From Halocatena marina (GTDB taxonomy: Archaea; Halobacteriota; Halobacteria; Halobacteriales; Haloarculaceae), in contig NZ_JALLPK010000001.1 in NCBI RefSeq assembly GCF_023276375.1, forward strand, positions 2,604,001 to 2,668,000: DNA of 64,000 bases, read 5' to 3'. The notes below the pieces were generated by a model. The model saw nothing but the letters and a program-made list of their open reading frames with translations. It was not told the DNA's origin and searched no databases. Below are positions 9,854 to 24,248 of this stretch, piece after piece. Both the position numbers and the translations under genes were made by a program. Each line of letters opens with the position of its first letter. The stretch's first letter is position 1.

Positions 9854-9942
9854 GGTCGCATGCGGCTTATTGGCTTCGGCTCGGAGGCCAGCTTCGGCAG
9901 TACGCACAGCACATACGCTGAGTGCTGGACAGGATGACTGTA

Positions 9943-10434
9943 TTAGTCATCGTTTGCACGCACATTTTCATCGACCGTGATGGAAACGGGAGTGTCGTCA
10001 CACTCACGATCTTCGAGTCGTTCATCGAGCGTGAACACCATGTTCAACGTCTCTTGTACCTGTTCGACAACGTCGAGGACAAGTTCTCTCGGTGAAATAG
10101 ATTCGTACTCGTAGGGGTTGTTGCCGGCACCATTCAATTCGCGCTTTTGCCGGAGGACGTTCCCCTCATCGTGGAGTGCAGCTAATGCCTCTCGAACCGT
10201 GCTCGGATACAGTCCTGTTCCCGTTGCGATTTCGTCGCTCGTCGAACTTGGTTGCTTTCGGAGATACAGATAGATGCGAGCACGGGTATCGGTGTCGAGC
10301 ACCCACGTAAGCAAGTCGATGATTCCTTCATCGAGTTCCCCGGTGGCTGCACTCTGCTCGATCCGCTCGCGGACGGAACGCTCTCCTCGTTCTGCATCTG
10401 TACTGGAATCATCGTGCGTGTCGTCCGTGGACAT
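9943..10434 (-). CDS. Winged helix-turn-helix transcriptional regulator
   Basis: The 163-residue protein has a clear winged HTH at about residues 45-105: LDTDTRARIYLYLRKQPSSTSDEIA, then the recognition helix region YPSTVREALAALHDEG and a basic wing LRQKRELNGAG. It is flanked by an acidic N-terminus and a C-terminal helical part that may dimerise. This is the halo-type ArsR/TrmB-like family that controls gene sets on chromosomes and plasmids. No ligand-binding domain is visible. It is 99 bases downstream of gshA and could be cotranscribed with it, so thiol metabolism is a possible but unproven target. Confidence 0.8.
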   Translation of the reverse strand: MSTDDTHDDSSTDAERGERSVRERIEQSAATGELDEGIIDLLTWVLDTDTRARIYLYLRKQPSSTSDEIATGTGLYPSTVREALAALHDEGNVLRQKRELNGAGNNPYEYESISPRELVLDVVEQVQETLNMVFTLDERLEDRECDDTPVSITVDENVRANDD

Positions 10435-10533
10435 GGCTCAATCGATGTCCATGAGGTCGGAGTTCTCGGATTAAAAGCCTTGCCTACACCGGTCAACGGA
10501 GCGGCATTGTATTGTCAATAGATAGTAATTCAA

Positions 10534-11664
10534 TCATATTCGTAGCAGCTCACACACCCCATCGAGACCAGTTTCTCGACGAACCCGCCGCTGTTGCTCT
10601 GCGCCGCTTTCCTCGTCGTACAATCTGCGAAGACTGGAGATGCCGAGTCTGTCGCACTCGCGTTCGACAACCTCTCCGAGATCGACAACGGACGCACCGT
10701 CGCGGTCGATAAACGACGCGTCGTGACCGTGACGCATTGCTCGCCACTTGTTCTCATCGAGTGTTTCACGACGGTGGGGGCTACCCATAGTTGCACTTGG
10801 CATCGAACGTGCGCTCGTGTTCGTCTTCGTGTTGCTCACAGAACGGTCCTCGTAGCGCTCTGCGTAGTCCATGACGAGCGCGTGGGTGTACTCAACGAAC
10901 GCGAGCGTACGATCGATGTCGGCTTGTGCGTCTGGGGTGCGCACCTCAACAGTCCCGTGTTCAGAATGGGGGCGAACCTCATACCACAGTTCGCCCCGGT
11001 CGCGGATCGAGCCAGACTCGATCATCAGCCGTTCGAGTTGTATGTACTCCTCAAACGACTCGAATGCGGTTGGCATCCCCGTGTTCGGGAGTGCTTCGAA
11101 TATCTTTGCTCGTGCAGATGCGAGACCGGTGTCGTATCCGTTCCAGTACGGTGAATTCGCCGAGAGTGCGAGCATCACCGGAAGATGCCAGCGAAGCTCG
11201 TTTGCGATCCACGTCGCCTTATCCGCGTCGTCGACACCGACGTGAACGTGTAAACCCGTAGTGGTATTTCGGTGCTGGGGATACTGTATACGGTCGAGTT
11301 GGGATCGGTACCGCGGCTTTTGTGCGTGCTCAAGTTCACGCCACTTCGCGGCCGGATGGAGTCCTGCCGAAGCGATGCCGTATCCGTGTTGTTCGGCGTG
11401 CTCAAGGAGCGCTTCACGGACCGCAGAAAGCGTCCGAGCGGCTTTGCCCGGATGCTCGATGAGTGGCGTTTGTGTCTCGATAACGCACTTGAACAACTCG
11501 TGATCGAGTCGGTCTTCGAGAAGCGTTGGCGGTTCGCTCTCGTAAACGAGTTCGTCTGTCCCGGATGTGGGACGACCGTATTCATCAACAACGAAAAACT
11601 CTTCTTCGATGCCAAGCGTCCCCATCCTCTCGAACGCCTCAGCAGACCCAACGTCGGTCGTCAT
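10534..11664 (-). CDS. gshA: Glutamate-cysteine ligase, haloarchaeal GshA
   Basis: GshA joins glutamate and cysteine to gamma-glutamylcysteine, the main low-mass thiol of haloarchaea. The protein has the GCS2/YbdK-type core: [12 protein letters not shown] after the start, ETQTPLIE, the metal/ATP segment [12 protein letters not shown] and [22 protein letters not shown] chose the ATG at 11662-11664 (376 residues, [18 protein letters not shown]). The open frame continues to 11850, but the added residues are Asn/Asp/Gly-rich low-complexity sequence with no resemblance to the family, and an ATG at 11676 is an equal alternative. A low-complexity piece near residues 280-300 ([20 protein letters not shown]) looks inserted. 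It shares redox work with msrA at 47.3 kb. Confidence 0.9.
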
Positions 11665-14246: not shown

Positions 14247-14876
14247 TCATTCTGTGGAGAAATAACCAGCACGCTTCGCGTCACGATCGTCTGTGCCCCA
14301 CGGCGGATCGAACTCCTCGATCGAGAGTTTTGGGACATGCTTTGCACAGTGGATATAGGCCTCCTCAACATGGAGTTCGACCCAAACTTTCCGGTGGTCA
14401 ACGCCAGCGGGATCAGTGAGCCCATCGATACTGTCGCGGAGTTCGACTCGACCATTGACGTGACAGCCGACAGTTGTCTCCCACCAATCAATGAACAGAA
14501 ACGACGCGTGCGGGTTTTCAATCATATTTCCGAGCGAGGCCTGTACGCCGTTACCTCGATATTCAGGGTAACAGAGGCGATTGTCGTCGAGAACACTGAC
14601 GAATCCTTCTGGACCAAATCGGGGCGAACAGTCTGTCTCTCCGTTCGCGTCGGCGGTTGAGAGAAAGAACATGATCCGCTCACGGATGAACCGCTGCATC
14701 CGATCTGTGAGAGAATCATTCATCGCCTCCTCGTAAAATCGCTTGGCCCGCTCGCGTGTCTCGAATAGCTCCTGAAGGTCGTGCTCGCCCGCACTGCCGG
14801 GCAAATCGTCGGTCATGTGTCTATTAAATTCGAACGGGCCCTCATTTGTGTCGTACTCGAACGGGTCCTCGGCCAT
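14247..14876 (-). CDS. Pyridoxamine 5'-phosphate oxidase family flavoprotein
   Basis: The 209-residue protein belongs to the FMN-binding split-barrel (PNPOx-like) family: FIRERIMFFLSTADANGETDCSPRFG (FMN-binding strand and loop), LCYPEYRGNG, then ASFLFIDWWETTVGCHVNGRV. Members include F420- and FMN-dependent reductases and heme-degrading proteins, and the substrate cannot be told from sequence. The ATG at 14874-14876 (MAEDPFEY) was preferred to a TTG four codons upstream. It is divergent from the H-NOX genes, so a redox or NO-linked partnership is thinkable but not shown. Confidence 0.82.
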   Translation of the reverse strand: MAEDPFEYDTNEGPFEFNRHMTDDLPGSAGEHDLQELFETRERAKRFYEEAMNDSLTDRMQRFIRERIMFFLSTADANGETDCSPRFGPEGFVSVLDDNRLCYPEYRGNGVQASLGNMIENPHASFLFIDWWETTVGCHVNGRVELRDSIDGLTDPAGVDHRKVWVELHVEEAYIHCAKHVPKLSIEEFDPPWGTDDRDAKRAGYFSTE

Positions 14877-15198
14877 GGTCGTTAACAATCGAATTTAGGG
14901 TATTATAGATTTAACGATGAATCTGAATTATAATAATATTGGTATTTACTGGTCCGTTTCCTATCCGACATTATGAACGCCAGTGATGATCGGATTTTTG
15001 AATCAACCCAATCCTGATTTCGTTTGTAGTTCAATTGAATCGTTCAGAACTCTTTTATCGATTGATTACGCTATGTGCAGCCATGCTAACCCACAGAGGA
15101 TCGAGAGAAGCAGGCTCCGTACACAATTCCGGGGTGGGCAACGGCGGTACGTCCAGAGGTTCCGCACCGTACCGGGCGTCCGAATCAGAGAAAGCCTA
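14877..15198. promoter_or_regulatory. Divergent region upstream of the H-NOX genes
   Basis: An AT-rich core at 14895-14945 (TATTATAG, ATTATAATAATATT) can supply the promoter of the minus-strand flavoprotein. TTTTATC at 15053-15059 is the best TATA candidate for the H-NOX genes and would leave a leader of about 115 bases. The reading frame of the first H-NOX stays open back to 14983, but its translation there is not protein-like. Confidence 0.35.
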
Positions 15199-15750
15199 AT
15201 GCATGGAATTGTACTGAAAGGTCTCAAGGATTTCGTCGTCACCCACCATGGCCACGAGGCGTGGCAAGCGATCCAGACTGAGGCAGGACTCAAAGGAAAG
15301 ATCTATGTCCCCGTGACAGAGTACCCGGACGAGGAAGTCATGACGCTCGTCGGAGCTGCATCGTCGATCACCGACACCGATGTGCCGGATCTCCTCGAGG
15401 AATTCGGGCAGTTTTTAGTGACACCACTGTTGGAGACGTACGGTGTGCACGTGAACAAGGACTGGACAGGACTCGAGTTGGTCGCTAACGTCGAGAAGTA
15501 TATTCACACCTCCCTCCGAGCAAAGGAAATTTCAGCGTACACTCCGCCTGAGCTACAGTCGGGCTGGATCGAAAGCGACCGCGTTGGAATCATCTACGAC
15601 TCGGATCGTAAGCTGTGTCACTTCGCGAGAGGTCTGATGGTTGGCATCGGTCAGTACTTCAACGATCCACTCAGGATAGAGGAACCGTCTTGCATGCACA
15701 ACGGCGACAATCAGTGTAGATTCGTCGTGAGTCGGGCGGGGACAATATGA
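15199..15750 (+). CDS. Stand-alone H-NOX (heme NO-binding, HNOB) protein 1
   Basis: The 183-residue protein is a complete H-NOX domain, the heme gas sensor fold of soluble guanylate cyclase. It starts MHGIVLKGLKDFVV, has the proximal heme ligand His103 in KYIHTSLR followed by YTPPELQ, and the propionate-binding YxSxR motif as Tyr133-Ser135-Arg137 (YDSDR). Five residues after that Arg, where O2-binding homologues have a distal Tyr, it has Phe142, which predicts NO/CO binding with O2 excluded. It ends with C165-x-H167-x-G-D-x-x-C173, a cluster reminiscent of V4R domains. The ATG at 15199 is chosen because family similarity begins at its second residue. A paralogue follows after 28 bases, then a chemotaxis operon. 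Confidence 0.9.
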   Translation: MHGIVLKGLKDFVVTHHGHEAWQAIQTEAGLKGKIYVPVTEYPDEEVMTLVGAASSITDTDVPDLLEEFGQFLVTPLLETYGVHVNKDWTGLELVANVEKYIHTSLRAKEISAYTPPELQSGWIESDRVGIIYDSDRKLCHFARGLMVGIGQYFNDPLRIEEPSCMHNGDNQCRFVVSRAGTI

Positions 15751-15765
15751 ATCACCAGATCGTGT

Positions 15766-15773
15766 GGAGGCGA
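15766..15773 (+). promoter_or_regulatory. Shine-Dalgarno that sets the start of H-NOX 2
   Basis: GGAGGCGA lies 5 bases before the GTG at 15779 and is close to a perfect complement of the 16S 3' end. It overlaps and rules out the alternative upstream GTG at 15764, and the chosen start aligns exactly with the MHGI start of the first H-NOX. Confidence 0.7.
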
Positions 15774-15778
15774 TAACC

Positions 15779-16315
15779 GTGCATGGAATTCTCTACAAGT
15801 CGCTGAAGGAGTTCGTCGTTGATCAGTACGGGCGTGATACGTGGAATGAGATCCGAGCAGAGGCGAGCGTCGGGTCGAAGCTTTACCTCCCGGTAAGCAC
15901 GTACGAGGACGAAGAACTCTTCGAACTCGTTAGAGCAGCAGCCGCAGTCATCGACCAAAAGGCTGAGGACCTCCTTGAACCGTTCGGTGAGATCATCGCC
16001 GCGCAGCTTTTAGACGCGTATGGGAACCTCGTGAGCCCCGACTGGACGGCCATCGATCTCGTCGAGCACACTGAAGAACACATTCACACCGTACTCCGTA
16101 CACACAACCCAGAACTGACGCCGCCGGAACTGGAGTGCCAGCGTCAGAGTGACGATCGGGTAATTGTCCGTTACCAATCGGAACGAGAACTGTGTGGCGT
16201 TGCAATTGGTATTGTTCGCGGTGTCGCCGCTCACTATGGGGAAACGATCTCCGTCTCCGAACACCGGTGTATGCACAGCGGAGATCCGTACTGTGAGTTC
16301 ATTGTGAGTGCCTGA
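15779..16315 (+). CDS. Stand-alone H-NOX (heme NO-binding, HNOB) protein 2
   Basis: The 178-residue paralogue of the preceding gene is clearly similar along the whole length (MHGILYKSLKEFVV start, YLPVSTYEDEELFEL). Key residues are kept: His103 in HIHTVLR followed by LTPPELEC, and Tyr132-Ser134-Arg136 (YQSER). The distal position is Val141, again non-polar, which predicts NO rather than O2 sensing. The C-terminus repeats the C164-x-H166-x-G-D-x-x-C172 motif. The start is GTG at 15779, set by a strong Shine-Dalgarno. The spacing to gene 1 (28 bases) indicates one transcript. In bacteria H-NOX partners are histidine kinases, cyclases or MCPs; here the next gene is an MCP. Confidence 0.9.
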   Translation: MHGILYKSLKEFVVDQYGRDTWNEIRAEASVGSKLYLPVSTYEDEELFELVRAAAAVIDQKAEDLLEPFGEIIAAQLLDAYGNLVSPDWTAIDLVEHTEEHIHTVLRTHNPELTPPELECQRQSDDRVIVRYQSERELCGVAIGIVRGVAAHYGETISVSEHRCMHSGDPYCEFIVSA

Positions 16316-16934
16316 CGTGTAGATCTGACGGAACCCACACCTCAGGAAGTTGATACTTCGTGGCGACGGTGTAGCGCAAACATCAAAATCCCACTGTGGA
16401 CGGCAACGGTTTGAATTCACAGCAGTACGCAGCTGTTTTCACGACAGGACTCAGTTTGGAGACCGGGGGCACTGAAATGACTCGAACAGTCACCACTGTA
16501 TCCACCGATGCTCACTAACAGTCTCTTCACGTTCGGTGTTGGATAAGATCCTCTGGAAGCGGTACGAGCGCACTGCTCCCTCGTGCTCTAAACTGAGACA
16601 CCGATGATTTCACGCACACTATGGAGAATTTGATCAGTAATCGATGAGACGGTACATAACATGCAGAACTCACCTATAGATAAATGAAAGTTACATAATT
16701 TGGCCTTTTTACTCATGTAGCAACTATGTCACACACAGTGTGTAAGATATGTTCAGAGATATATGAGAAAAGCACAGCATGAAAGAGATATCCACAGATC
16801 GGCAACCTCATGCGTCATATGGAGATTTACTCAGGTAGATCTGGGAGTCATCACCTATCCACTAATCCACACAACGCTTAATATAATCGTGTGAGAATCT
16901 TTATAACAGCTCATCCGAAATTCTATTCCCAACG
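16316..16934. other. Long spacer between H-NOX 2 and the MCP gene
   Basis: These 619 bases have no supported gene; all frames are short. The first half is mixed, the second half AT-rich with many short ATA/TATA stretches. The far end holds the probable promoter of the chemotaxis operon (TTATAA at 16901-16906). I see no RNA gene. The length suggests either a decayed gene or a regulatory region, and it means the H-NOX pair and the che genes probably have separate promoters. Confidence 0.5.
16899..16906 (+). promoter_or_regulatory. TATA element of the chemotaxis operon
   Basis: CTTTATAA lies about 31 bases upstream of the MCP ATG at 16935, which would place the transcript start within a few bases of the start codon, as is usual for haloarchaeal leaderless mRNAs. 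A second AT element (AATATAAT, 16880-16887) is a weaker alternative. Confidence 0.45.
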
Positions 16935-18455
16935 ATGGGAGAGCCCGGTTCAGCGCGGATGCGATATCCATTTAAATTCGGGATAATGGTGCTCGGTATT
17001 GGTGTGCCGATAGGGATCGGTACAATCGTCGTGACTGGACGATCTGAGAGTGAGATCTTCATCGCGATGGTAGGAGGAGTCATGTTCGGCGCCTTGCTCG
17101 GGATGATCATTGTCTCCCGAACGATGGGAGCGATCGAAGAGCTGATGGACAAGGTCGAGACAGACATGGACCCTGAGGCATTCGCGTCGACAGCAGAGCA
17201 ATCCGGACTAGTCGGCCGGTTAGCATCGATGCTCAAGGGCACCCAGTCCTTGCGGCGGAGAACCACCAATGCCGAGCGAACAGTTCTGGAGTACCAAGTG
17301 GCGGTTCAGGAGTGCGCAGATGGCGACTTGACCCGCCGACTCAACACAGACGTCCAGAGCGAGGAACTCTCTGCTCTGGCAACCGGTATCAACGAGATGC
17401 TCGCTGATCTTGAAGATACGATCGGGAGTCTGACTAATTTCGCAAACGAGGTCGCCACCTACAGTCAGGAGGTGCGGATGAGTACCGAGGAAGTGCGTGA
17501 CGGAAGTGAGCAGGTGACAGCATCTATCCGTGACATCTCCGAAAACGCAGAACGCCAGCTTCAGGGACTCACGGTCGCCTCGTCCGAGATGGACGAATTC
17601 TCAACAACAGTTGAAGGGATTGCTGCCTCATCGAACGAGGTCGCGGAGCTCTCAGAGCGGACGGTCGAAACAGGCCGACAAGGCCGTGAAGCCGCCCAAA
17701 CGGCAATCGAGAGCATGAATCAGATAGAAAATGAGTCAGTAGAGACAGTCGAAGAGATCGAGCGCCTCGAAGCAGAGGTCGAGCACATCGATGAGCTCAT
17801 CGACTTCATTACCGAAATTGCAGAGCAGACGAACATGCTGGCGCTCAACGCGAATATTGAGGCCTCACGTGCAGGTGAGTACGGCGACGGATTCGCGGCC
17901 GTCGCAAACGAGATCAAGGCGCTTGCCGAGCGGACCAAGGATGCAGCCGCGGACATTGAGGGGCGACTGGCAGAGATACAAGAGCAGACAGATCGGACGG
18001 TAACAGAGGTTCAAGAAACAAGCGAACAGATCGCGGACAACGCTGACTCCGTCGAAAACGCGGTCAATGCACTGGACGAAATTGCTACCCTTGCACAGGA
18101 GACGAACTCGGGCGTTCAGGCGATCAGTCAGACGACCGAACGAGAGGTCGAGACCACACAGGAAGTCGCCAAGATGGTCGAAGGAGCCGCAGAGACGGCC
18201 ACAACGATCAGTGATGAGACCACCGCCGAGTCCGAAACTGTCGCTGCTGCTGCTGAGGCACAGACGACTGCGCTCGAACAGATCGCACTGAGCGCAGCCG
18301 ATCTGGCCGACCGAGCAACCCACCTCAGCACGACATTGGGTGATTTCGACGCAGCCGTCGCCGGAGACTTCGGATTCGAGACCGAGGGGCCTCCGGAGAG
18401 CACCGACGCCAGACACGATGGCGACGTGAACACATTTCTAAAGAATGCTGACTAA
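16935..18455 (+). CDS. Methyl-accepting chemotaxis protein without a sensor domain
   Basis: The 506-residue transducer has two membrane helices (about residues 13-34 and 41-60) joined by only about six residues, so it has no extracellular sensor domain. A HAMP-like segment follows (about 118-165, [11 protein letters not shown]...), then a long coiled coil with the highly conserved CheA/CheW-binding hairpin tip [21 protein letters not shown] near residues 296-316. Several Glu/Gln pairs in the flanking coiled coil are candidate methylation sites. The two-helix design recalls sensory-rhodopsin transducers, which borrow a separate receptor subunit. The two H-NOX proteins just upstream are the obvious candidates for that role (inference). 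Its stop overlaps the cheW start (TAATG). Confidence 0.93.
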
Positions 18456-18997
18456 TGAGCGTGAGTAAACCCGAACCCAATTCAGACGCCGAAGCCGAAT
18501 CCAGCTCCAATTCCAATTCCGCTGCTGCCGTTACCGGCGCTTCCGGGAACGTTGAGTTCGTCCGCGTTCACATCGGCAGCGAGGCGTACGTCTTCGAGCT
18601 GGGGTGTGTGAATAAACTTGTCCGCAGCCCCTCACTCGCACGTGTTCCCCGGACACCACCGACAATCGCCGGTGTGGCGGAGATTCAGGGGAACGTTACA
18701 GCAGCGATCGACGGGCGAACACTCCTCGAGACAGACAATCGTGAAGGAGTCACACAGCGAATTCTGGTGGTATTCGCCAGAATGACGCACGATCAGACGG
18801 CAGGCATACTCGTCGACGGTATCGAAGGTATTGAGACGCATCCCGTTGACATGATTGCGCCGTTGAATTCGACTGACGAGCCTGAGGAACCAGACGGTGA
18901 CTGGTTCAAGGCCGTCGTTGACGAGAAAACGTGGGTGTTTGATCCAGAGCAACTGACCGAGGCAGCGCGCAGGGATAGTGACCAACAGGTGAACTGA
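18455..18997 (+). CDS. cheW: CheW chemotaxis coupling protein
   Basis: CheW links MCP signalling tips to CheA. After a 30-residue Ser/Asn/Ala-rich N-terminal tail (SSSNSNSAAA..., simple-sequence DNA), the 180-residue protein shows the CheW double-barrel pattern: VRVHIGSEAYVFELGCVNKLVRSP, PPTIAGVAEIQGNVTAAIDGRTLL and GILVDGIEGIETHPVDMI. The disordered tail is unusual, since most CheW proteins begin directly with the first strand. The start overlaps the MCP stop by one base and cheY follows after 3 bases, so translation is probably coupled. Confidence 0.93.
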   Translation: MSVSKPEPNSDAEAESSSNSNSAAAVTGASGNVEFVRVHIGSEAYVFELGCVNKLVRSPSLARVPRTPPTIAGVAEIQGNVTAAIDGRTLLETDNREGVTQRILVVFARMTHDQTAGILVDGIEGIETHPVDMIAPLNSTDEPEEPDGDWFKAVVDEKTWVFDPEQLTEAARRDSDQQVN

Positions 18998-19000
18998 AGA

Positions 19001-19366
19001 ATGTCATTACGAATCCTACTGGTGGACGACTCAGAATACATGCGGAGGCGGATTGCGGCCGCGCTGGACGATGAGTACGAGATCGTAGCCGAAGCTCCGA
19101 ACGGAGCACAGGCCGTGAAGGAATACAAGATCAACGCTGGCAAGATCGACATTGTCCTCATGGACATCGTCATGGCGCAGGCGAACGGCATCAAGGCGAC
19201 CGCAGCGATCAAGCAGATTGATCCAGATGCTCGGATTGTCATGTGCACGAGTGTCGGCCAGCGAAAGAAAATGAAATTGGCGGCCCGCGCCGGAGCGGAC
19301 GGCTATCTCGTGAAGCCGTTCGCCGACGCGGATATCGTCGACGCGATCAATCTCGTCCTCGCATGA
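19001..19366 (+). CDS. cheY: CheY response regulator
   Basis: CheY is the phospho-carrier that leaves CheA and acts on the archaellum motor through adaptor proteins (CheF/ArlCDE in haloarchaea). The 121-residue single receiver domain has all key residues: acidic pair Asp9-Asp10, phosphorylation site Asp55 (VLMDIVM), switch Thr83 (CTSVGQ) and Lys105 (YLVKPF). No output domain is attached. It lies between cheW and cheA in the operon. Confidence 0.96.
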   Translation: MSLRILLVDDSEYMRRRIAAALDDEYEIVAEAPNGAQAVKEYKINAGKIDIVLMDIVMAQANGIKATAAIKQIDPDARIVMCTSVGQRKKMKLAARAGADGYLVKPFADADIVDAINLVLA

Positions 19367-19415
19367 TGTCCGTCGCCGACAGGCACTGCCATTCGTGGAA
19401 TGGAGGAATCCGCGG

Positions 19416-22304
19416 ATGAGTACCGATGACGAGGTGCTCCGCGAGGTGACTTCCATCGTCAGAGATCTGGGCAACGGCCTCGTCACTCTTGAGCAATCCT
19501 CGGACGACGAGACGATTGCAGAACTCTTTCGCGCTTCCCACACCCTCAAGAGCAACTGCGCCATGGAAGGGATTGATGGGGCCGCCACCCTTGCCCACGC
19601 GGTCGAGGATTTCCTCGCAGCCGTCCGCTCTGATGATGTGATTCCATCGTGGACGCTCGTGGACGGTGCCCTCGATGCTGTAGACGATACGGAGGCAATT
19701 CTGAACGCAGTCGAACGGGGCGAGGAACCAACGGTCGATCCCGATGCGACGGCCGCCGCACTACGCGATCTGATCGAAGAACAACACGAAACTGAGAATG
19801 GGACTACGTCGACAGAGGGTGACGGGACTGAAAAATCTGAGTCCGATATTGATCTCATACTACCGGAGCCCGACGAAGACCTGTCAGCTGAAGAGGCACT
19901 CGAACGAGTGAGTATCTTCGACGACCTCGATAAATTAGCGGCCAATATCGACGATGATGACGAAGCATTCGGCGAGCTAGAGGGAGCAGGGAGGTTCGAT
20001 ACGATCGGAGAGAGCAAAGCACCATCTTCGCGGTTGGATGAACCAGACACCCCAAGCACAGTCGAGACATCGACACCGGATGCATCCGAAAAGACACCCA
20101 CGGATAGCAGGGCAGCGTCAACAGACGACAGTGTTGATCCGGGCGATCGTCCCTTCGAATGGGTGAAAGCTGAAACGAGCGAAGAGACGGATATCGAGGC
20201 TCTCGAAGCCGATCTTGAGGACGTTACCTTCGGCGAATTCGACGACGAGGACGAGATGAGTATTCAAGAGCTCATCGAACTCGATCCCGAAGAAGAGTTC
20301 GACACACCAGCGACGACCGAAAACGACGCGGCCCAGACACCGACGTCGGATGCATCTCGGGACAGACAACCAGATGGTGAAACACACCCAGGAAACGACA
20401 CCACTGATTCGACAGACGATACAGATTCAGCAGCGTACATCGAAGAACCCGAAGACGACCCCTTCATATGGGTGAAAGACGAGACGAGCGAGGAAACGGA
20501 TATCGACGCCCTCGAAACAGATCTTGAGGACGTTACCTTCGGCGAATTCGACGACGAGGACGAGATGAGTATCCAAGAACTCATCGAGCTCACTCCCGAG
20601 ACACCAGAAACAGCCGAAGAGTCGACTACTCTCGACGAACCGACGTCGGATGTATCTCGGGACAGACAACCAGATGGTGAAACACGTCCGGTAAACGACA
20701 CCACTGATTCGACAGACGATACAGATTCAGCAGCGTACATCGAAGAACCCGAAGACGACCCTTTCATATGGGTGAAAGACGAGACGAGCGAAGAAACGGA
20801 TATCGACGCCCTCGAAACAGACCTTGAGGACGTTACCTTCGGCGAATTCGACGATGACATCCTCGACGCGATTGAGGCAATTGATCTGGAACAGTCCGAA
20901 TCCCCAACGGAAATCGAGGATGTCGAGTTCGAGAGCGAAACGGGAACCAAGGAGTTTACCGAGCGATTCGGAGGGCTGTTCGATGTCGAGTCCGACGGCG
21001 AGGGACCCATCAGATCTGTTGGGACGATCGAGGACAGCACACTCGACACCGAGCAGTTCCGTCGGGACCCATCGATGGAGACCGACCCGGCTGAGACACC
21101 ACTGCATTCTATCAGTGTCGACGTAGAGACGGCTGACGATCTGTTGAACCTCGTCGAAGAGCTCTCGATGGCTCGGCTCTCGTTCGAGGATGCGATCGGC
21201 GATACAATCAGCGAGGAAACCAGCGATGTGCTCGGTGCGCTGCAGTCGATCGAAGCTGCGTTCCGTCGATCCGTGATAGATCTTCGACTGATGCCACTCT
21301 CGTCATCTGTCGATGGACTGCCTCGCGTCGCCCGAGATATTGCGCGTGATCAGGGCAAGCGTATCTCCTTTGATATTGAGGGCGAGGACGTGAAGTTGGA
21401 TCGGAGTGTCGCTGAGCGGATTGGTGAACCGTTGGTCCACCTCGTACGGAACGCAGCTGATCACGGAATCGAATCTCCCGACGAACGCAAATCGGCTGGA
21501 AAGCCCGCCGAAGGCCAAATAGAGCTCCGAGCAGAGCGAGTCCGCGACGGAGCCGTTATCGAAGTCACAGACGATGGTCGCGGCATTGACCCCGACGCAG
21601 TACTCACGAAAGGAGTAGAGGACGGAGTAATAACGCAAGCCGAGGCTGAAACGCTCGACGAAGAGGACGCTTACGATCTCCTATTCCACCACGGGCTGTC
21701 AACATCCGAGGAGATTACCAGTGTGAGCGGTCGGGGGGTCGGCATGGACATCGTCTCGCGGGTCTGTTCCGACCTCGATGGCACAGTCGAAGTGGAGAGC
21801 GAACCGGGCGAAGGAACTACTGTTCGGCTACGGCTTCCAGTCACCGTCGCAATGGCGAAGTTGCTGTTCGTGGAGGCGAGCGATGAGAAGTATGCAATTC
21901 CTATGTCAGATGTGAGATACATAGGAGAGCCAGAAGAGCAGAATACGATCGACGACAGAACGTTCGTCTCGGAGCCAGCACTCGATTGGGATGAGACCAA
22001 CGACGAGGACGAGAGCACAAACGGAGACAAAGACAATGACGAACAGGAACAGGAACAGTATCGACTCGTACGGCTACACGAAGCATTCGACGTGCCCGCA
22101 CGGTCGACTGGCGATGGGACCGTCATTTGGCTCCGGCCCGAGATAGGGCGTGTTGCGATCCACTGCGATGGTGTCTTAGAGTCTCGTGAAGCGGTTGTAA
22201 AGCCGTACGGACCACCCCTTGATCACGTTCCAGGAATCAGCGGAGCGACGATGGGAGAGAGTGGAGACGTCATCAACATTATCGACGTGACAACGATAGC
22301 ATGA
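19416..22304 (+). CDS. cheA: CheA histidine kinase with tandem-repeat linker
   Basis: CheA phosphorylates CheY in response to MCP signals. The start is ATG 19416, behind a GGAGGA box at 19401-19406. The 962-residue protein has an Hpt domain with phospho-acceptor His42 (FRASHTLKS), then an acidic region (about 245-490) with three long repeats that share DETSEETDI...DLEDVTFGEFDD. Next come a dimerisation helix pair (about 565-630), the ATPase with HLVRNAADHG near 675, DDGRGIDPD near 720 and GRGVGMDIV near 772, and a CheW-like domain from about 815. A second acidic insertion lies within the CheW-like domain (about 865-885). Haloarchaeal CheA proteins are usually nearer 650-700 residues; the repeats explain the excess. 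Confidence 0.96.
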   Translation: MSTDDEVLREVTSIVRDLGNGLVTLEQSSDDETIAELFRASHTLKSNCAMEGIDGAATLAHAVEDFLAAVRSDDVIPSWTLVDGALDAVDDTEAILNAVERGEEPTVDPDATAAALRDLIEEQHETENGTTSTEGDGTEKSESDIDLILPEPDEDLSAEEALERVSIFDDLDKLAANIDDDDEAFGELEGAGRFDTIGESKAPSSRLDEPDTPSTVETSTPDASEKTPTDSRAASTDDSVDPGDRPFEWVKAETSEETDIEALEADLEDVTFGEFDDEDEMSIQELIELDPEEEFDTPATTENDAAQTPTSDASRDRQPDGETHPGNDTTDSTDDTDSAAYIEEPEDDPFIWVKDETSEETDIDALETDLEDVTFGEFDDEDEMSIQELIELTPETPETAEESTTLDEPTSDVSRDRQPDGETRPVNDTTDSTDDTDSAAYIEEPEDDPFIWVKDETSEETDIDALETDLEDVTFGEFDDDILDAIEAIDLEQSESPTEIEDVEFESETGTKEFTERFGGLFDVESDGEGPIRSVGTIEDSTLDTEQFRRDPSMETDPAETPLHSISVDVETADDLLNLVEELSMARLSFEDAIGDTISEETSDVLGALQSIEAAFRRSVIDLRLMPLSSSVDGLPRVARDIARDQGKRISFDIEGEDVKLDRSVAERIGEPLVHLVRNAADHGIESPDERKSAGKPAEGQIELRAERVRDGAVIEVTDDGRGIDPDAVLTKGVEDGVITQAEAETLDEEDAYDLLFHHGLSTSEEITSVSGRGVGMDIVSRVCSDLDGTVEVESEPGEGTTVRLRLPVTVAMAKLLFVEASDEKYAIPMSDVRYIGEPEEQNTIDDRTFVSEPALDWDETNDEDESTNGDKDNDEQEQEQYRLVRLHEAFDVPARSTGDGTVIWLRPEIGRVAIHCDGVLESREAVVKPYGPPLDHVPGISGATMGESGDVINIIDVTTIA
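20151..20865 (+). repeat. Three tandem coding repeats in cheA
   Basis: Three copies of a unit starting PF-x-WVK-x-ETSEETDI begin near 20151, 20460 and 20760. The second and third copies, including their upstream Ser/Thr/Asp-rich linkers (from about 20340 and 20640), are nearly identical at DNA level with a 300-base period; the first is more diverged. Each unit ends in EFDDEDEMSIQELIEL (the third is cut short). High DNA identity points to a recent duplication. Confidence 0.9.
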
Positions 22305-22483
22305 ACTGGAAAGACCAACTGACCAGAAACGACTCCTGCTCTGATCCGACCGGCGGCGGATCGTCGGACGGCTCGACAACTGGATCCAGCAGTGAGATCA
22401 CGAGCAAGAACAGAAATAAGAACGGAAACGGGTCGTTTGTCGAGTTTTTCTATTGTCTATCAATCGATCACGGAGTAGTATGA
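22301..22483 (+). CDS. Possible small ORF between cheA and cheC
   Basis: A 60-codon frame starts at ATG 22301, overlapping the cheA stop as ATGA, and ends overlapping the cheC start codon. Both overlaps are the hallmark of coupled operon genes. The product (MNWKDQLTRND, then Gly/Ser/Thr/Asn-rich sequence, then FVEFFYCLSIDHGVV) is low-complexity in the middle and matches nothing I know. It may be a real micro-protein, a remnant of a deleted gene, or chance. Confidence 0.3.
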   Translation: MNWKDQLTRNDSCSDPTGGGSSDGSTTGSSSEITSKNRNKNGNGSFVEFFYCLSIDHGVV

Positions 22484-23745
22484 AACTGGATGTCAACACG
22501 ATGGAGACGTTCTACGAGATGGCGCGCGAGGGTGCGGGTCTCGCGGCTGACCGCCTCGCACCGATGATTGACCTCCAGACACGCGTGAGCGTTACCCGTC
22601 TGCACTTTACGAGTCAGGCTGCAATTGCCGATGAGCTCGACAACAGCCGGAATAAGATTGGCATCAGTGTCAGTCTCGTTGGCGACGTCGAGGGGCGTTC
22701 ACTGATTCTCTTTGATGAGGAGAGTGCAAACGACGTCGCACGGATGCTCGTCTCAGACGTTCCCGGTGACGAGCGCGAATGGTTAGCCAGAAGCGCGATC
22801 GCCGAAGTTGGCGCGATCATGAACAACGGCTTCGTGGACGGCTGGGCAGACGTGCTTGGGACGGAGATCGATGTCTCACCGCCAGAGTTCATCACCGGGG
22901 TCTCCGCTGATGCCTTCGTCGATGACCCGACTGACGATGATCTCGCGGTGGCGTTCCGGAGCCGGATCGAGGCCGTCGATGAGGAGATCCGGTTCCAGCA
23001 CTACCTCGTCCCAGAGCACGACACAGTTGTTCGGCTGCTTGAAGGAGAGGATAACGACCGAGTCATCGACTCCGAGAAACTTTCTGGGTTCGATCAGATG
23101 GCCGGTAACGGCGCAGCGAAGATTTCCGAGAATCTCGAGCAAATGACCGGCATCGACGCCGAGATCGAGGTCTGGCGGATTGAATTCATCTCGCTCGACG
23201 CCATTCCAGAAGGCATTGCGACCGAGCGTCTCATTAGCGTCGCATTCACGTTCGACGGGATGCTGAGTGGCTATCTGCTCTTCCTTTTTGATCGTGATTC
23301 AGCGGTCAATCTCGTCGAGTCGACGCTCGGTTCCACACCGATCGGCGACCTCGGTGCGCTTGAGCGCGACGCGATTCAGGAGCTCTCAAACGTTATGGCG
23401 AGTGGTTTTCTCGACGGTTGGGCGAACGTGCTCGAGACAACCATCGACCACTCGACGCCCGCCTACACTTACGACATGGGGGCTGCCGTGGTTGACCCAC
23501 TGGTTGTCGGACTGAGCGAGCGTCAAGAGTTCGCTTTCGTCTTCGACGTGCGCATTCAGGCCGCTGGAACAACGTTTCATCTCGACATCTACGCAATTCC
23601 AGACGAGGACGACCTCATCAACGCGCTCGAGACGCTGGATACTGGACGCGTTGATGAATCGTCGATCACGCCGGAGTTTGCGCCCGCCGAAGCCGTCCCG
23701 TCGTCGTTTGAGGTCGAAGGCCTCACCAAACTCGATCATTCATGA
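22480..23745 (+). CDS. cheC: CheC phosphatase family protein, two fused CheC domains
   Basis: CheC-type proteins dephosphorylate CheY-P and regulate CheD. The 421-residue product is a tandem of two CheC domains of about 200 residues, each with an active-site helix: EVGAIMNNGFVDGWADVLG near residue 110 and IQELSNVMASGFLDGWANVLE near 300. Each helix keeps the E-x3-N pattern of the phosphatase site (E..IMNN, E..NVM). Double-length CheC proteins are known among haloarchaeal che clusters. The start ATG 22480 has a GGAG box 5 bases upstream; the 9 extra codons of the open frame were rejected. It overlaps cheD by 4 bases (ATGA). Confidence 0.9.
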   Translation: MKLDVNTMETFYEMAREGAGLAADRLAPMIDLQTRVSVTRLHFTSQAAIADELDNSRNKIGISVSLVGDVEGRSLILFDEESANDVARMLVSDVPGDEREWLARSAIAEVGAIMNNGFVDGWADVLGTEIDVSPPEFITGVSADAFVDDPTDDDLAVAFRSRIEAVDEEIRFQHYLVPEHDTVVRLLEGEDNDRVIDSEKLSGFDQMAGNGAAKISENLEQMTGIDAEIEVWRIEFISLDAIPEGIATERLISVAFTFDGMLSGYLLFLFDRDSAVNLVESTLGSTPIGDLGALERDAIQELSNVMASGFLDGWANVLETTIDHSTPAYTYDMGAAVVDPLVVGLSERQEFAFVFDVRIQAAGTTFHLDIYAIPDEDDLINALETLDTGRVDESSITPEFAPAEAVPSSFEVEGLTKLDHS

Positions 23746-24248
23746 AAACATACAAGAAACTCCCCGATTCAGAAGAGAGCGACCGGCAGCTCGTCCGTGT
23801 CTCTGAGTACGGTGTTGCGGACAGCAGCGAGACGCTCATTGCCTACGGACTCGGTGCCAGCGTGGCAATCGCGCTCTACGCCCCAACAGGTGTCGGTGGG
23901 CTGGCTCATGCTATGCTCCCACGGAAAGACGATGGCGTTGGGAGTGCTGATGGAAAGTTTGTCGATACTGCGATTCACGCCATGCTCCGTGAGATGATCG
24001 GGGCGGGTGCCGGTTACGGAACGGTCGAGGCTCAGATCGCTGGCGGTGCGGACATCTTTCAACTCGATGGCCTTGCCACTGATGCGGGGCGACGCAACAT
24101 CGAAGCCGCCCGTAACGAGCTTGCGGCACTCGACGTGCCTATCGTTGCCGAAGATATCGGAGGTGGACGCGGCCGTCGTGTCGAGTTCGATACAGCCTCG
24201 GGCGATCTCGTGGTACACACCATCGACAGCGACGCGATCCGCTTGTGA
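23742..24248 (+). CDS. cheD: CheD-family protein with Ser in place of the catalytic Cys
   Basis: CheD deamidates Gln residues of MCPs with a Cys-His pair and binds CheC. This 168-residue protein has the family scaffold: GLGASVAIALY (residues 37-46), LAHAMLP with His56, AQIAGGADIF and VAEDIGGGRGRRVEF. Where active CheD proteins have GLGSC, this one reads GLGAS, so the nucleophile Cys is Ser40 (codon AGC). It is therefore probably inactive as a deamidase, or works with a weak Ser nucleophile, and may act as a CheC-binding regulator. It is the last gene of the operon; no cheB or cheR follows. Confidence 0.9.
   Translation: MKTYKKLPDSEESDRQLVRVSEYGVADSSETLIAYGLGASVAIALYAPTGVGGLAHAMLPRKDDGVGSADGKFVDTAIHAMLREMIGAGAGYGTVEAQIAGGADIFQLDGLATDAGRRNIEAARNELAALDVPIVAEDIGGGRGRRVEFDTASGDLVVHTIDSDAIRL

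Follow-up and report, generated by a model that had tools for sequence, protein, structure and literature searches.

In a 64,000-nucleotide stretch of the genome of the haloarchaeon Halocatena marina (contig NZ_JALLPK010000001.1, forward-strand positions 2,604,001 to 2,668,000; hereafter the window) we found two adjacent genes for stand-alone H-NOX proteins, which lie upstream of a gene for a methyl-accepting chemotaxis protein (MCP) without a sensor domain and of a set of che genes. We consider it likely that the two H-NOX proteins are the heme sensor subunits of the adjacent MCP, and that together these components form a gas switch that acts through CheA and CheY and has an output other than swimming. 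The argument draws on domains, fold, heme-ligand residues, linkage, shared clades, gene absences and purifying selection between two relatives, all of which were established by computation.

H-NOX genes and their linkage to an MCP

H-NOX1 (15199..15750, 183 aa) and H-NOX2 (15779..16315, 178 aa), 42 % identical by alignment, lie on the forward strand, as do the MCP and che genes, and are predicted heme-NO-binding sensors with HNOB Pfam matches of E 9.8e-33 and 1.4e-36, the latter obtained with a longer open reading frame (ORF) start. We set the start of H-NOX2 at GTG 15779 because the proteins of relatives start with MHGI. No further HNOB match was obtained from the whole H. marina genome, and Haloferax volcanii, run as a control, gave none. 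A preliminary description of this DNA had proposed two adjacent stand-alone H-NOX proteins with a proximal His103 and a YxSxR motif, and this was borne out, as both proteins have HNOB matches (E 1e-32 and 1e-36) and contain His103 as well as Y133-S135-R137. It had also placed the two genes directly before the MCP gene (16935..18455, 506 aa; MCPsignal Pfam E 2.6e-35), from which H-NOX2 is in fact separated by 619 nt (16316..16934).

Co-occurrence of H-NOX and MCP genes above chance had been set beforehand as a check on the proposed partnership. The sample comprised 391 genomes of the class Halobacteria, 86 of which gave HNOB matches, and we fetched 115 stretches, representing the neighbourhoods of all listed HNOB places except the window's own. 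As one genome (G277, loci L032 and L003) duplicates that of the window, the two were counted once, with L032 representing the window. An H-NOX tree of 118 rows, built by a quick method, separates a clade B of 71 rows (SH-aLRT 80) from a group A, which is the other side of that branch, includes both window H-NOX proteins and, with L146 set aside, holds 44 sequences from 41 loci; as several inner forks are open, group A is not shown to be one clade. Three loci belong to neither group: L146 (remote, below the family cut-off), L144 (a fragment) and L145 (no phmmer hit). MCPs were located by phmmer with the window MCP at E 1e-3, a search that very remote MCPs could escape. Using this approach, we detected a downstream, same-strand MCP within ≤1.5 kb at 32 of the 41 group A loci versus 0 of the 71 clade B loci (Fisher p 3e-20, without phylogenetic correction), in keeping with the co-occurrence that had been anticipated. 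Three clade B loci (L070, L085 and L097) have an MCP 1.5–3.5 kb downstream, that of L070 standing beside a Bmp-type binding protein. The 32 genomes with an H-NOX/MCP pair span five families (20 in f3, four in f4, three each in f1 and f7, and two in f6). Spacing within the pair varies, from the 619 nt of the window to 120–194 nt or overlapping frames at the other loci, where, for overlaps, the start codon taken was the first one met from 40 nt upstream of the H-NOX stop onwards, a choice that favours overlaps. Among the 32 pairs, that of L057 ends at a contig edge, and what follows the group A H-NOX in genome G301 is an MCP-like fragment of 272 aa that has no signalling domain (L073:9980-10795).

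Linkage to an MCP is confined to H-NOX proteins that keep the heme ligand, as His103, together with Tyr133, Ser135 and Arg137, is conserved in 44/44 distinct group A sequences in the alignment, whilst the proximal His is present in 0/71 sequences of clade B, where the column contains Tyr (40), Ala (10), Thr (8), Val (8) and other residues. Clade B, which consists of 71 haloarchaeal HNOB sequences (e.g. L068, L080, L101 and L134), is, to judge from this column, probably a heme-less H-NOX-like family. At L068, PRPP-synthetase-like, HVO_0234 beta-propeller and PGM/PMM genes lie upstream of the clade B H-NOX gene, and beyond it come a CARDB protein gene on the opposite strand and a gene for a class I tRNA synthetase; relatives of these neighbour genes were found by blast in 59–67 other loci. 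The fold was modelled for H-NOX1 only (pLDDT 86, 23 sequences) and has a TM-score of 0.89 to Shewanella oneidensis H-NOX (4u9b), the next structural matches being Nostoc H-NOX, Tt H-NOX (from Caldanaerobacter/Thermoanaerobacter tengcongensis) and the beta subunit of soluble guanylate cyclase (sGC). S. oneidensis H-NOX is also the best sequence match in the PDB (2kii, E 9e-21). A deltaproteobacterial metagenome-assembled genome (L164) encodes an H-NOX 38 % identical to H-NOX1; its 18.5-kb locus yielded no relative of the MCP.

The window MCP, which is the sole MCPsignal match in its genome, was found to have the two membrane helices (residues 15-33 and 41-59) that had been ascribed to it, followed by a helical region and a signalling domain with a conserved tip. 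As had also been proposed, it has no sensor domain: Pfam shows no sensor family in this protein or in any of the linked MCPs scanned (31 of the 32, L057 being cut by a contig end), of which 30 have an MCPsignal match, L073 being the exception. A structural model of the window MCP is all helical but of low confidence (mean pLDDT 58.8), and was used solely for the absence of a globular domain. We then built a quick tree from 21 of the 32 linked MCPs, three Bmp-type MCPs and 36 rows of other MCPs from genomes G078, G301, G374 and G384 (35 genes, as L226 and L235 are the same gene). In it the 21 linked MCPs come out as a single clade (SH-aLRT 99), to which the Bmp-type MCPs are sister. As the latter carry a large part between their first and second transmembrane segments (TMs), this suggests that the linked MCPs lost an outside sensor and gained a cytosolic one.

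The recurrence of the pair in 32 genomes of five families, with spacing that varies and with two gene orders among the loci that carry che genes, supports the earlier proposal that the H-NOX protein is a separate sensor subunit of the MCP; further support comes from the single clade formed by the linked MCPs tested and from the heme ligand kept in group A and lost in clade B. Beyond the Halobacteria, a phylum sample of 392 genomes gave HNOB matches in 31, of which 14 lie outside that class and the remainder overlap the class sample. Loci were fetched from nine of these 14 genomes, which have full-length matches; the matches of the other five are partial or sub-threshold. In seven of the nine (L250–L252 and L254–L257), all from three genera of family f16, H-NOX adjoins che genes or lies within a few genes of them. 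CheB stands directly before H-NOX, identified by Pfam in L255 and, in L250, L252, L256 and L257, from its size together with a CheY-type hit, and CheA lies downstream of H-NOX in L250, L251, L252 and L255. With their differing gene order, the f16 loci are independent support from a second lineage.

The che set and the search for motor genes

Downstream of the MCP are genes for CheW (18455..18997; CheW Pfam E 2.9e-15), CheY (19001..19366; a single receiver domain, Response_reg), CheA (19416..22304; 962 aa from ATG 19416 in an ORF open from GTG 19395, with Hpt, HATPase_c and CheW matches and a long linker), a CheC-type CheY-P phosphatase (22480..23745; two halves matching CheC and CheX, its start set by homology to the relative at L150) and a CheD homologue (23742..24248; CheD Pfam). 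The preliminary description had them in this order with overlapping frames. The order was upheld by Pfam, whilst overlaps are restricted to MCP–CheW and CheC–CheD, the remaining che gene pairs being merely close. The acidic pocket and phospho-acceptor Asp of CheY are intact in alignment. In CheD, by contrast with the GLGAC motif of six other carriers and the GLGSC of the canonical cluster of G384, Ser replaces Cys (GLGAS) in the window and in strains YIM 93972 and YIM A00013; the Cys at this position is the catalytic residue of CheD. The CheA linker contains a 300-bp tandem repeat (20151-20854; 2.3 copies, 88 % matches), and the CheA of YIM 93972 is shorter, at 754 aa versus 962 aa.

CheW, CheY, CheA, CheC and CheD genes were found beside the pair, in two gene orders, at seven fetched loci (L032, i.e. 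the window cluster, L034, L051, L059, L060, L062 and L072), and Salinigranum salinum (L148) and Halobacteriales archaeon YIM A00013 (L151) are further carriers of both. Nine linked CheAs form one clade (100/100), apart from six canonical CheAs near CheR, CheF or archaellin genes, so that the window CheA does not group with the archaellum type. Five of the six canonical CheAs in this tree come from genomes holding both CheA kinds, and for such genomes the separate clade points to a second, distinct che system. Outside the window's genus, a truncated globin (PF01152) is common to the clusters by blast; its gene runs divergently from H-NOX in Salinigranum and in Haloferax-genus loci, and in f6 from the cluster led by cheY (L059:8859-9221, L034:3291-3647, L148:8391-8759 and L051:8885-9247). 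It is a possible NO-detoxifying partner. Additionally, a gene for a PPOX-type FMN flavoprotein (14247-14888) adjoins H-NOX on the opposite strand in the window, and at L055, a group A locus without an MCP, a PPOX-type flavoprotein gene (9919-10980) overlaps the H-NOX end.

We also searched for motor and adaptation genes. Archaellin, CheF and CheR gave no matches in four genomes of the genus, namely that of the window (G000), YIM 93972 (G183), G338 and G361, and CheB gave none in the window genome, the only one searched for it. Positive controls for these searches matched in Haloferax volcanii, and the window genome has a completeness of 99.9 and a contamination of 9. The genomes of the window and of YIM 93972 each hold a single MCP, with CheW and CheA as their two CheW-domain proteins, whilst G338 and G361 have no MCP and no CheW/CheA match. 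In the other six of the ten genomes tested (G301, G078, G305, G245, G374 and G384), all with group A H-NOX, archaellin, CheF and CheR were found. CheR counts as a core enzyme of chemosensory pathways, those of alternative function included (PMC3447774); the window genome yielded no CheR match. As CheR, CheB and the CheD Cys are all lacking, modification of the receptor should give no slow adaptation. The term chemotaxis, which the preliminary description had used, could thus not be sustained for H. marina, given the lack of archaellin, CheF, CheR and CheB matches and the presence of a single MCP.

Proposed mechanism and competing explanations

From these observations we infer heme binding, NO selectivity, direct contact between H-NOX and MCP, control of the kinase and an output. 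A gas ligand would bind the H-NOX heme and alter the H-NOX fold; H-NOX would contact the membrane-proximal or HAMP-like cytosolic helices of the MCP and thereby set the activity of an MCP–CheW–CheA array; CheA would then phosphorylate CheY, and CheC would dephosphorylate CheY-P. Where haloarchaea are motile, this pair probably serves taxis or supplies a dedicated second array. In the window genome, where this is the sole chemosensory pathway found, a weakly adapting gas switch with a non-swimming output would be most likely, because archaellin, CheF, CheR and CheB are all without a match and CheD does not look active. More tentatively, the che system of non-motile, hypha-forming haloarchaea may have been reduced to one receptor, without motor and covalent adaptation enzymes, and may act as an H-NOX-gated, non-adapting switch for a process other than motility, such as differentiation. 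Heme-type H-NOX would in that case have a role in chemosensing in at least two lineages of archaea.

The full CheA/CheW/CheY set would also suit true taxis, with NO or O2 steering movement through H-NOX by means of an undetected motor or type IV pili. Indeed, the six group A carriers of other genera possess archaellin, CheF and CheR, PilB-like ATPases exist in the window's genus, and in two loci of the Haloferax genus (L059:226-7392, by Pfam, and L062, by blast) H-NOX is preceded, at a distance of a few kb, by a PilB/PilC operon with DUF7261–7289 genes. Gradient sensing, however, usually needs adaptation enzymes, none of which was matched in the window genome, and the motor genes are likewise without a match there and the MCP is single. 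Type IV pili were also considered as the output and rejected, since PilB-like genes are present equally in congeners without MCP or CheW/CheA matches. Moreover, hyphae, spores and loss of archaellum and motility are reported for the clade containing YIM 93972 (Tang et al. 2023; PMC10067837). As such, taxis in H. marina is unlikely.

The ligand might be O2 or CO, or the signal the redox state of the heme, rather than NO. To compare the distal pocket, we located the position equivalent to Tyr140 of Tt H-NOX by offset from the YxSxR motif, using the Tt numbering of that motif. This position is Phe in H-NOX1 and Val in H-NOX2, and across group A it is Tyr in 0/44 sequences (V 26, L 10, F 3, W 3 and I 2). 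A distal Tyr is tied to O2 binding, with Tyr140 of Tt H-NOX having a role in stabilising O2, and O2-excluding H-NOX proteins are described as NO-specific (PMC8738867, PMC9814294). The closest solved relatives, furthermore, are the H-NOX proteins of S. oneidensis and Nostoc, the former of which is NO-specific (PMC9814294). The MCP-fused H-NOX proteins of obligate anaerobes, which bind O2 (PMC8738867, PMC9814294), and the lack of a nirK match in the window genome are the points in favour of another ligand, which we nevertheless regard as improbable. On the residues present, the window H-NOX proteins are probably NO-selective soluble heme sensors.

It is also conceivable, if doubtful, that the MCP itself senses through its membrane helices, as does MpcT, a transducer with two TMs that senses membrane potential (PMC3579733), and that H-NOX acts elsewhere. 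Two close TMs are present in 27 of the 32 linked MCPs, and other close-TM MCPs exist in G078, G301 and G384. L065, however, has three TMs, L038 has one, and L069, L071 and the fragment L073 have none above threshold; as L069 and L071 are still paired with H-NOX, a membrane signal cannot be general. That the H-NOX-linked MCPs tested form one clade, and that MCP linkage accompanies the heme ligand, likewise argue for H-NOX as the sensor. Finally, a decaying relic of former chemotaxis in a motor-losing lineage, which would suit the lack of CheR, CheB, CheF and archaellin matches, the lost CheD Cys and the two congeners without MCP or CheW/CheA matches, is very improbable given that the window and the relatives L150 and L151 all have open frames, that the CheY phosphorylation residues are intact and that purifying selection is seen over seven genes between YIM 93972 and YIM A00013 (dN/dS 0.06–0.32: H-NOX 0.10, MCP 0.08, CheW 0.32, CheY 0.06, CheA 0.18, CheC 0.23 and CheD 0.10).

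Several observations weigh against H-NOX proteins as sensor subunits of a gas switch. The 619-nt gap of the window contains a TATA-like TTTATAA at 16900, read by eye, which raises the possibility of a separate promoter for the MCP in this genome. Close-TM MCPs are also found at places without an H-NOX nearby (L209, L212, L215 and L232, in the three genomes named above), and topology alone therefore proves nothing. The branch bounding group A has an SH-aLRT of 80 only, with several inner forks open, and 9 of the 41 group A loci have no adjacent MCP, although one of these (L054) is at a contig end. The congeners G338 and G361 have no match for H-NOX, MCP or CheW/CheA, and two loci from other non-halobacterial families, L253 (f37, at a contig edge) and L258 (f38), are without a che gene. 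No output gene emerged: by blast, nothing beyond che and H-NOX is common to the loci of the window, YIM 93972, the Haloferax genus, Salinigranum and f6. Besides being unmatched in the window genome, nirK does not track the pair; a link to NO production was accordingly rejected, nirK (TIGR02376, E up to 1e-60) being present in 21/32 pair genomes versus 188/358 others (p 0.20).

Relation to known sensory systems

H-NOX signalling has been described for bacteria and, as sGC, for animals. If the proposal is correct, the conserved split H-NOX/MCP pair would extend such signalling to archaea with a new arrangement of separate-subunit partners. With one receptor, one CheA and one CheY, the window offers a simple system for studying gas input to a chemosensory array. 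Should the output prove to be non-swimming, an archaeal che system would have been reused in a genus that includes hypha- and spore-forming archaea. We found no report of H-NOX in archaeal chemosensing among the papers listed in searches of the open-licence literature, which is mostly without subscription papers, and this is no proof of novelty; the split H-NOX/MCP pair looks to be the new part of the finding.

BasT and CosT work with partner proteins and, like the sensory rhodopsin–HtrI/HtrII systems, resemble the arrangement described here in joining a separate sensor to a transducer with two TMs; the archaeal H-NOX differs in being a predicted cytosolic heme protein instead of a rhodopsin or binding protein. 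In HemAT and HtrVIII of Halobacterium the sensor part belongs to the same polypeptide and has a fold other than H-NOX. The latter two are likewise archaeal gas (O2) transducers, and as haloarchaeal split sensor/transducer pairs were known already, the earlier suggestion that such a split would be new for archaea does not stand (PMC3579733). The Che3 system of R. centenum, which governs cysts, is a Che cascade with a non-motility, developmental output (PMC3868531), an output of the kind that we only propose here; the window system differs from it in having no CheR/CheB match, a single MCP and H-NOX input. In bacteria, H-NOX genes beside kinases and cyclases and H-NOX domains fused to MCPs are both known (PMC9814294, PMC8738867). 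The Tt/Ct H-NOX–MCP fusion shares with the archaeal pair the driving of an MCP by H-NOX, as proposed here, but binds O2 (PMC9814294), whilst the archaeal proteins are separate and have no distal Tyr. The histidine kinase and diguanylate cyclase systems of Shewanella and Vibrio are alike in having a stand-alone H-NOX gene of the NO type next to its partner, in fold (TM-score 0.89) and in heme motif; what sets the archaeal system apart from these is that the partner is an MCP with CheW and CheA.

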